Position numbers and translations under genes: made by a program | Part shown: one piece after another, positions 12,501 through 31,979 of the stretch | Layout of the letters: every line of letters starts with the position of its first letter | How positions within the stretch are numbered: the stretch's first letter is position 1 | The notes under the pieces: generated by a model | What the model was told of the DNA's origin: nothing | Database searches by the model: none | The model's input: the letters and a program-made list of their open reading frames with translations, nothing else | Assembly (NCBI RefSeq): GCF_037975245.1 | Contig: NC_092567.1 | Coordinates: 13,840,876 to 13,904,875, forward strand | DNA from: Apostichopus japonicus | Lineage: Eukaryota > Echinodermata > Holothuroidea > Aspidochirotida > Stichopodidae | DNA: 64,000 nucleotides | Direction of reading: 5' to 3'

Positions 12501-15500
12501 TTTTATTTATATCAACAATGTAAATGACTTGCAGTCCTATGTTTATAGTTTAGCAATGAATTTGCTTTGAAAGCGCACGAACTGTAAAACAGTTTTTCAG
12601 TACTAGTGCAAATGGAAGGAGTTGGCAAAATATTTTAATACGGATTTAAGTGTGGTGTGCTTGTGTGGGGTTGGAGGTAGGGAGTGTGTTGGTATGGGGA
12701 GGGGGTGTAATGTTAACCCCACAATCAGCTGGCTTATGGTATATTGTTTTTAATGTCGCATGGACGAAAATGATATTTTGGATTGAGGGAGGGTTAAATG
12801 ATGGTGAGAGTGTCACATGATGACACATTTAATTCTCATGCTTCCTGAGAGTTCAAACCTACTGAATTTCAGCTCCAAATAGAGCGAAAAGTATCCTCCC
12901 GGGGTTGCTTATTATGTGTTTTGGGGTCACCCACCCCTTCCCTCCTAATTTAGCATTCGTCCAACATACATTTTTCAAAAAAGTTTTAAGTAAACAGTTA
13001 CCATGTTCTTCACTGCTACAGGAATTCTACAGTATAACCACGTACAGTGGTATAAATCCTCCGAAAATCCTTGTGCGTGTGAAGTAGAGTAGGGAATCTT
13101 CTGGAATCCCCCCTCCCCCCACCCCCACGGCAATTCCTAACCTTCCTTCTCGCCCGACATTATAAAGGAAACTTCCTTTACATATCTGATATTAAGACAC
13201 ATATCAGATACACGGCAAGCATGTATCCACGTAAAATAAAATGATACCGTAACTACCGTAAAAATTCGAACGAATACATATGATATCTGGATTGAATTAC
13301 CTATACAGATCCCCAGACGAACGCATTTTGTTTGCCTCTCGTACTCCTCCCGGTAAACTGTGTAAGTAAAATCAAGATCAAACTTGGGTTGTGGGTCATC
13401 CGTCATACTAAACTTGATACAAAAGTATTTGAAGTCAGCACAAACGCCCTCCGTAGCGTCAAATGTGTAACGCAGTTTGTTGAAAGTCCATCTCCTGTCC
13501 GGAGGTGCGTAATCTGATATGGCTTTTGAAAATTCAAGAGCTCTCTCTTTTTCTGATAGCACGTTATCATTGTAAGAAAATTTTTCTCCAGAACCATCGC
13601 TGTTTCTACTGACCCAAGCGCTTATCCTCCACATATTTTCTCCTTGTATTATCCTTGACGTCCGTGCTTTGAATATTTCAATTTCTGTCGCGAATCTGAA
13701 CCTGTTCATTTCGCCCTCGGTAATTCTTGTACCCGGCGTGAATTGGTTGAACAAGTTAAATAATTCCATTGCTGGGTGAAAGAAAATAAGATGGTCAAAA
13801 GTATGTATTTATACACATCATTTACGCACACGTACACATGCATAGTTAAGGAGTAAGAAGGGAAGGGAAGGAGGGGGAGCAAGAGAAAGAGAGGCGGGAA
13901 GGAGGATGAGGATGAGGAGGAAGTGACGTAAGAGAATGATATGGAAGAGAAGAGAAGGAAAGAAGAAGGAGGAGGAGTAGGACAGTGCAAGAGAAAAGAT
14001 AAGGAGATGGTGAATGAGAAAAAGATAAAGGATGAGTTGAAGGAGGAAGAGGAGGAGGAGGAGGAGGAGGAGAGGTAGGAGGTGGTGGCGGAGGAGGAGG
14101 AGATGGGGGAGGTGAAGAAACAATTACTAACTGATAGGACACATTGGACAGCACTCTCCTGGTATTTTGACAGGATCGGAACATTTTGGTTGTGCACAAG
14201 TAATAATGTCACAATCTGTGGTACCGTTGTAACAAGTACACAATGTACAATCGTCTAACTTCCATGGTTCGCGATGTAGCTTAAGTGAACCTCTAAACAC
14301 ACACGGTCCCATGTCGTAAATGCTACTGTCCGATGAAAACTCTGTAAAACAGCAAAAGAAATACATGTGGTATCATGTGTTATTATCAAAAGACAAACAT
14401 ACAAAAGATTCACGTCCTCGATACCAAGGAACATAACAGAATAACTGAAAGCAGTTTATCAATTTGACTAAAACCTACAGAATATTATATATAAAAATTA
14501 AATTAAAATTGATCAAACAACAGAATACATTTCGCATTTTTCCCCTTTGATGTAGATTTGTAGGATATAAATTGTTTGGTACATCGATATTAAACTTGTT
14601 GATCTTTCATTCTTACATTCGTTGACACGAAACTCCTTTCTTCTTAATTGGTAAGAATTCTAAGCATTTCGAGGGACAATGAACTGTTCAATCGTCACAG
14701 ACGGTTTTTGTGCAACTTATGAAACATTTTCCAACATCCGTTTGTGCATTAGTAACTCTAGGGGAACTAGTATTAACCCAACAGTCATCTGTGCACGTTG
14801 CTACCGCTATTGTTTTACCGTAAGTATAAAATTGAAGTAGTTTGTATTACCACATGACCAGGAGACTAATGATGGAGGAGTAGAATGAAAACAAAATTAC
14901 TTGATCAGAATCAATCTTGTGTATACATGGACAATACTCTGGGGACTCGCTATTAAATCATACTCAAATCAATCGTTGGAATTCATTTTCGGGACTTCTT
15001 TGGGAGTTACAATGGCATTTTCTTTCAAACTGTAAGTCAGATAAGCATTAGCGTTGTTGAAATGTTGCTTTTTATTTACGGGTAGTCTAAGATTTACATA
15101 AACAAAAAAAACCTGTGAACTATCCTTTAAATTCCACCGGAAGTGATGTCACTTCCATTTAATGATCTGTACACGTAGTTATACTGCTTTTGTTTTAAAT
15201 TGAAGTAGATTGTCTTACCTGATGTATCCTGGAAGGCTATTGGCGGAAAAGGAGAATGGAAGCATACATATTTTAAAGGAGAATGTTTGATTGGTTGCAA
15301 TCGTAAAATCCACCCCCCCCCCCCAAAAAAAAGTATATCACTGGATAACCCGCAAGTTAACAAAGATATCCTTACGGTTACAAAAATATTCGCTTCGTTA
15401 AGTCTGTAGTTAACATTAATTATACAACCCCTCTCTATCTGTTAGTATCATTCTTGTGTCTGATTGGCTGATATGATATCATGTGACCATTCCAGACCAC

Positions 15501-31979: not shown

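Follow-up and report, generated by a model that had tools for sequence, protein, structure and literature searches.

A microexon array between a signal-peptide exon and a VWC exon: a probable micro-exon gene joined to a SURF-like matrix tail in an echinoderm genome

Can exons of 9-18 nt in a large intron be told apart from chance pairs of AG and GT, and, if so, what kind of gene do they build? The question is raised by the minus strand of the window analyzed here (the whole 64,000-nt stretch, C7:13840876-13904875, within a searched genome of 671,581,487 bases in 35 contigs). A first-pass annotation had listed five such exons, at 24984-24967, 22889-22872, 18396-18388, 17231-17217, and 15236-15219 (18, 18, 9, 15, and 18 nt), and had read them as part of a micro-exon gene with potentially combinatorial output. 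All five intervals are present, with AG before and GT after, and the series is flanked, as described, by a signal exon and a VWC exon. However, the list was incomplete: four more exons belong to the series (25939-25916, 23433-23410, 18931-18905, and 17504-17481) and a fifth (14865-14851) probably does. The series between the signal exon and the VWC exon comprises eight well-supported microexons (24, 18, 24, 18, 27, 9, 24, and 15 nt) and two weaker ones. We consider it very probable that the window holds a gene whose 5' half is of the micro-exon type and whose 3' half is of the extracellular-matrix type, with the following parts.

31919..31979, minus strand: signal-peptide exon, phase-1 donor GTAAGT; a pattern for its start is found at 15 genomic sites, counting this one
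25916..25939, minus strand: microexon a1, 24 nt, (K)IPSICLQ; absent from the first-pass annotation, kept in two paralogues
24967..24984, minus strand: microexon b1, 18 nt, PNDEC; kept in two paralogues, the proline in just one of them
23410..23433, minus strand: microexon a2, 24 nt, VKTLCDM; absent from the first-pass annotation, kept in two paralogues
22872..22889, minus strand: microexon b2, 18 nt, PSQCA; kept in two paralogues
18905..18931, minus strand: microexon a3, 27 nt (30 nt in paralogues), LRIQCACM; absent from the first-pass annotation, 2 differences in 27 nt in a near-identical C7 copy
18388..18396, minus strand: microexon b3, 9 nt (6 nt in paralogues), GPC; weak acceptor score, missed by a consensus-only rule
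17481..17504, minus strand: microexon a4, 24 nt, ALQLCRQ; absent from the first-pass annotation, kept in two paralogues
17217..17231, minus strand: microexon b4, 15 nt, PGSC; kept in paralogues
15219..15236, minus strand: candidate microexon a5, 18 nt, FQDTS; top splice score of the interval, found outside the window as an exon only in the near-identical C7 copy
14851..14865, minus strand: candidate microexon b5, 15 nt, SWSC; its DNA repeats the a5 segment in tandem, weak splice score
14132..14341, minus strand: VWC domain exon, 210 nt, symmetric phase 1; Pfam VWC, 2.4e-12
13301..13771, minus strand: SURF-like module D1, four cysteines, one exon
10669..11109, minus strand: SURF-like module D2, four cysteines, one exon
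9929..10363, minus strand: SURF-like module D3, four cysteines, one exon
9090..9526, minus strand: SURF-like module D4, four cysteines, terminal exon with stop TAG; polyadenylation-type hexamer (AATAAA or ATTAAA) at 9040

All internal junctions of this model are phase 1. The VWC exon scores 47.4 bits against Pfam PF00093 (cut-off 27.6) and has six PDB sequence matches, chordin and collagen II among them. Modules D1-D4 are 144-156 residues long and all four share four invariant cysteines; Pfam assigns no family to the four module frames, and a profile built from the modules, scanned against six frames of the whole window, returns D1-D4 plus four others at E 6.5-8.8. The signal exon encodes a signal-like hydrophobic start, and secretion is predicted from it. 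Elsewhere on the minus strand of the window (56587-61563) there are 2-oxoacid dehydrogenase acyltransferase exons (Pfam PF00198), one of the two falling under the family cut-off. Four tandem arrays (16226-17059, 19278-19921, 49631-50895, and 52322-53124, with units of 76, 37, 398, and 47 bases) are also present, two of which sit in microexon introns.

The first reading to be weighed is that the microexons are AG and GT pairs picked out by eye from a large intron. There is material for such an error: the 17.6-kb interval contains 199 open intervals of 9-18 nt, and lone P-x-C intervals with a fair score also occur upstream of a C23 paralogue (PCK, 4.5). That every exon is phase 1, as had been pointed out, does fit, but it is no independent evidence because the flanking exons impose the phase and most short intervals lack a stop whichever frame is read. 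We ranked all intervals that are open, phase 1, bounded by AG..GT, and a multiple of three (3n) in length, using splice matrices of metazoan frequencies. Among 641 such intervals of 6-60 nt, four of the five first-noted exons rank 1, 2, 3, and 7, the 9-nt exon b3 ranks 18, and rank 4 falls to the previously unlisted 24-nt exon at 25939 (IPSICLQ). Four intervals of 9-18 nt score at least 4.5, against a shuffle mean of 0.9, and four were reached in 4 of 200 shuffles. A rule based on splice consensus only keeps 18 intervals, four of the five first-noted exons among them, and misses b3. The splice score by itself is thus modest evidence for the microexons.

The encoded peptides are more discriminating. 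The Pro-Cys pattern noted in them at first pass keeps to phase 1: P-x(0-3)-C is found in 5 of 21 high-scoring intervals in phase 1 and in none of those in phase 0 (0/17) or phase 2 (0/15). Four exons with this pattern score at least 2.1, whereas 200 shuffles average 0.02 and none has four or more; five control strands have none. This pattern, and both pair motifs described below, were defined after the peptides had been seen. Given that post hoc choice, more weight attaches to a neutral test of peptide similarity, in which the similarity among the top 5, 6, 8, or 10 exons exceeded that of all 150 shuffles every time.

A larger unit becomes apparent when neighboring exons are joined. The 24-nt exons a1, a2, and a4 each sit before a "b" exon, and the joined pairs read CLQYPNDEC, CDMNPSQC, and CRQYPGSC. 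In each of them the intron splits the codon just before the proline, so that three exon pairs rebuild C-x3-P-x(2-3)-C across splice junctions. In these pairs the "a" exon would contribute residues up to and including C-x-x together with the opening base of the split codon, the "b" exon would supply P-x(2-3)-C, and each pair would form one small two-cysteine loop, presumably closed by a disulphide. Three junction-spanning pairs are found in the interval and none in five control strands, and 150 shuffles, taken at the loosest threshold of the three used, yield at most two apiece. Under a looser pair motif the counts at the three thresholds are 4, 6, and 9, overlapping alternatives included; the control strands have none, and the shuffle maximum is 3. 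Under the consensus-only rule the same three pairs are recovered, compared with a mean of 0.01 pairs over 300 shuffles and none in seven other stretches.

Importance attaches above all to the paralogues. A second copy of the gene lies ~135 kb away on C7 (13.98-14.01 Mb), with aligned blocks 95%-99% identical and with the signal exon, ten microexons, and VWC in the same order. It differs at one position in the signal exon, one in a2, and two in a3, and at none in the other nine exons; it may be a recent tandem duplication, a retained haplotype copy, or an assembly duplicate, and it is too close in sequence to be suited to testing constraint. At a diverged locus on C23 (8.01 Mb), the same signal exon is followed by exons of 24, 18, 24, 18, 30, 6, 24, and 15 nt in order, and a third locus (C23:9.26 Mb) has the same exon set. 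Exon lengths at these two C23 paralogues differ from those in the window by 3 nt only (27/30 and 9/6). The mature segment at 8.01 Mb is KFPLSCLKNWLEECSIYELCDLNPRWCKELYESCGTCSGCDFRQLCNIFPESC; its nine cysteines match those of the window gene, and many other residues differ, the b1 proline included. All nine cysteines of a1-b4 are kept in the window gene and in both C23 paralogues. When the window (32100-13500) is compared by BLASTN with 20 kb of the 8.01-Mb locus, the five matches fall on the signal exon, a1, b1, a2, and b4; with wider stretches there is a sixth, 0.7-0.8 kb upstream of the window's signal exon. A comparison of the 8.01- and 9.26-Mb loci shows differences at 14 of 159 bases in the exons (in complete codons, 5 replacement and 2 silent changes), at 1 of 64 splice positions (AG plus six donor bases), and at 702 of 7853 aligned positions overall: the splice signals are conserved, and the exon sequence changes at roughly the overall rate. 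Together with the shuffles, the phase control, and the other strands, the paralogues decisively refute a chance origin of a1-b4, and we regard chance as an exceedingly improbable account of the series. It may still explain a5 and b5.

These two candidates are a case apart. Their claim to be exons draws on the splice score (of a5), on phase, and on their mutual duplication: their close flanks score 46, whereas the highest value among 500 shuffles is 27, and a 147-bp direct repeat (95% identical, 15875-15729 and 15105-14959) adjoins both and marks a segment duplication. No diverged homologue of either was found. Flank likeness does not extend to the rest of the series. Over 15 microexon pairs, a5/b5 alone stands out (b2/b3 reaches z 3.4), and among the best 8 of 45 pairs a5/b5 stands out, a4/b4 does so by overlapping windows only, and the other six have z no higher than 3.0. 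A location of the microexons inside repeats was considered and rejected: none of the self-matches listed covers a microexon. Vertebrate neuronal microexons are enriched for UGC upstream. No such enrichment is seen upstream of the microexons in the window (10.0 UGC per kb, compared with 16.3 overall).

It could also be argued that each "b" microexon is the tail of a longer, alternative first exon, because in the window ATG-initiated hydrophobic open frames lead into b1, b3, and b4. However, both paralogues have stops in the same frames upstream of b1 and b4, and their b3 frames, although open, have no ATG. On this evidence we reject the idea, which we consider scarcely credible.

What, then, follows the array? 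SURF modules are four-cysteine modules that lie between VWC and the minor triple helix in some sea-urchin collagens, and in the Strongylocentrotus purpuratus 1-alpha gene a frame-neutral intron may carry VWC together with 16 SURF modules (PMC2852846). A role in mutable connective tissue has been suggested for SURF molecules (PMC10817530). In the genome searched, module D2 has at least 95 matches, and related modules occur at two tandem loci on C4 (minus strand): at one, VWC (8471910) is followed by modules at 8470-8459 kb and COLFI at 8437-8435 kb, and at the other, VWC (8416829) by modules at 8416-8397 kb and COLFI at 8363-8361 kb. The best C4 module is 43% identical, and all 16 COLFI matches in the genome are on C4 and C22. 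Because modules lie between VWC and COLFI exons at both C4 loci, and because a four-cysteine series follows VWC in the window, we call D1-D4 SURF-like by architecture and genome context. The window gene itself is not a fibrillar collagen as far as the window extends: it has neither a triple helix nor a COLFI domain, and runs of at least five Gly-X-Y triplets are absent from the window except for two low-complexity matches. A further cluster, at C23:11.53-11.69 Mb, comprises six VWC exons with SURF-like modules, some of which are split between frames or interrupted by stops.

The 5' half has relatives of another kind. Downstream of the common array, the 8.01-Mb locus continues into 6- and 9-nt exons with stereotyped borders (e.g., ttctctatag..gtaagacatt). 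In this 3' part, all 26 strong AG..GT intervals (nonoverlapping, 4-30 nt, score of at least 4.5) are 3n in length (10 of 6 nt, 15 of 9 nt, and 1 of 24 nt); they represent 24 distinct contexts, as three 9-nt copies form a tandem repeat. On two control strands of the window the 3n share is 3/8 and 1/10, and 100 shuffles average 6.4 intervals with 32% 3n. A small contrary count comes from the opposite strand of the 8.01-Mb array, where 4 of 4 (15 or 18 nt) are also 3n. Over the 3.4 kb examined at the 9.26-Mb locus, 4 of 4 are 3n. Repeats under no constraint should drift away from 3n lengths. Genome-wide, with any spacing of 3-15 allowed, the border pattern occurs at 9 nt in 52 of 52 cases, in 13 clusters on C11, C21, and C23, and a second border pattern at 6 nt in 12 of 12, of which 11 fall at these C23 loci and the other on C20. 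Reversed border patterns gave no match in the genome. For 11 of the 13 clusters a same-strand signal exon lies 8-46 kb upstream; the other two, on C11, lack their own. Conversely, the signal exons on C12 (12522288), one on C21 (10469161), and both on C7 are without a 9-nt cluster. It should be noted that the family copies are related by descent, so copy counts are not independent events.

The micro-exon-gene reading of the first-pass annotation is thereby strengthened, in that paralogues keep the array and one of them, followed further downstream, has many more 6-9-nt exons. The conserved order and cysteines, the 3n lengths, the 13 arrays, and the 15 signal exons identify a micro-exon-gene family, apparently outside flatworms. 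On balance we favor, with some reserve, the broader proposal that an echinoderm has a micro-exon-gene family of its own (at least 13 arrays and 15 signal exons), with exons down to 6 nt, that would make combinatorial secreted proteins on a cysteine framework, one branch having captured a collagen-type VWC-SURF tail.

How secure is the join between the two halves? In this genome the signal exon and microexons stand at the head of a family with several loci, whose furthest-read member runs into a long array of 6- and 9-nt exons, not into VWC or SURF. The window gene therefore has the appearance of two gene types combined by phase-1 exon shuffling. Alternatively, there may be two neighbors: a micro-exon gene that ends short of 14.4 kb and, next to it, an independent VWC-SURF gene whose first exon has not been seen. 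The halves do occur apart. No VWC or SURF was found in 35 kb from the signal exon of the 8.01-Mb paralogue, no VWC match lies near the C23 arrays, and the six C23 VWC-SURF genes show neither a/b pairs nor a signal exon in the 13-29 kb searched upstream. The array-VWC splice in the window is accordingly drawn from strand, order, phase, and the lack of another signal exon, and the window gene is either a fusion or two adjacent genes. Against separate genes, the two parts share strand and phase, b4 and VWC are 2.9 kb apart, and the order is identical in the second C7 copy (possibly an assembly duplicate). Moreover, a crude scan for signal-type first exons (33.5-14.1 kb) lists six starts, none of them between b4 and VWC. 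The own first exons of the six C23 genes were not found in the stretches searched, and their VWC exons keep a similar acceptor. A fusion is favored by the VWC phase-1 acceptor with its startless upstream frame, by the lack of any listed first exon between b4 and VWC, and by the same order in the C7 copy, and we judge two neighboring genes to be unlikely. A single transcript would accordingly run from the signal exon to D4.

In the fusion, a conventional exon would encode the signal peptide, eight (probably ten) symmetric phase-1 microexons would follow, mostly as a/b pairs, and these would lead into the VWC exon and four single-exon SURF-like modules. The product would be a secreted protein of matrix type, with an N-terminal cysteine segment assembled from microexons and putative disulphide loops. 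Because all exons between the signal exon and the terminal D4 are phase 1-1, the loss of any microexon would leave the frame intact, and inclusion may be variable. Skipping a pair would remove a loop, and skipping a single member would leave an odd cysteine, which could favor intermolecular bonds. It is a serious possibility, although one we lean against, that the microexons are real yet always included, forming a constitutive, intron-split, cysteine-rich linker with no combinatorial output. The nine a1-b4 cysteines kept in three paralogues are what would be expected if the whole segment folds together, and the motif spans the pair junctions. On the other side, every microexon is symmetric, the length of two of them changes by 3 nt from one paralogue to another, and isoforms with and without a frame-neutral VWC-SURF block have been proposed for a sea-urchin collagen gene (PMC2852846); these points do not show skipping here.

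The closest known kinds are schistosome micro-exon genes (MEGs) and sea-urchin SURF proteins. Under one rule, a MEG has at least seven exons, at least half of them shorter than 70 nt and 3n, in a run of at least four (PMC7653826); the window gene falls within it, with 8 of 14 exons (paralogue-supported) or 10 of 16 (with a5 and b5) and a run of 8-10, whereas the five first-noted microexons alone would give 5 of 11. Under another description, ~80% of the coding region lies in symmetric 6-36-bp exons (PMC5825161). The window gene lies outside this, with 192 of 2247 coding bases (8.5%) in microexons, because it continues into VWC and SURF modules, unlike flatworm MEGs; its C23 relative at 8.01 Mb (354 of 415 nt in the exons seen, without a 3' end) would fit. 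Runs of short 3n exons, long introns, and many gene copies are shared with schistosome and tapeworm MEGs (PMC5825161, PMC7653826, and PMC10526429), whose products are secreted, as is predicted here. The exons here differ in carrying a fixed nine-cysteine framework, the host, judged by its SURF-collagen-like loci, is apparently no flatworm, and the likeness drawn here is one of architecture. Those loci also agree with the echinoderm-like origin assumed in the first-pass annotation. Similarly, VWC followed by a series of four-cysteine modules is the layout of the sea-urchin SURF proteins (the 2-alpha and 5-alpha collagen N-propeptides and fibrosurfin; PMC2852846 and PMC10817530), and related modules lie between VWC and COLFI on C4. 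Unlike those proteins, the window gene has only four modules before a stop and a microexon array between signal peptide and VWC, and its likeness to them is drawn from architecture.

A literature search of partial coverage returned no report of micro-exon genes in echinoderms, and the animal literature, to the extent covered, treats such genes as a helminth feature, largely of parasites. If our reading is true, the locus and its relatives would mean that the MEG strategy of schistosomes was invented a second time, independently, by a deuterostome that lives free. The same architecture, with strictly 3n exons down to 6 nt, in an animal with SURF collagens would mean that it can arise or persist without parasitism. 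Standard annotation likely misses such exons. The family would offer a testable case for how splicing recognizes exons of 6-9 nt, and for exon shuffling between a MEG and a matrix gene.
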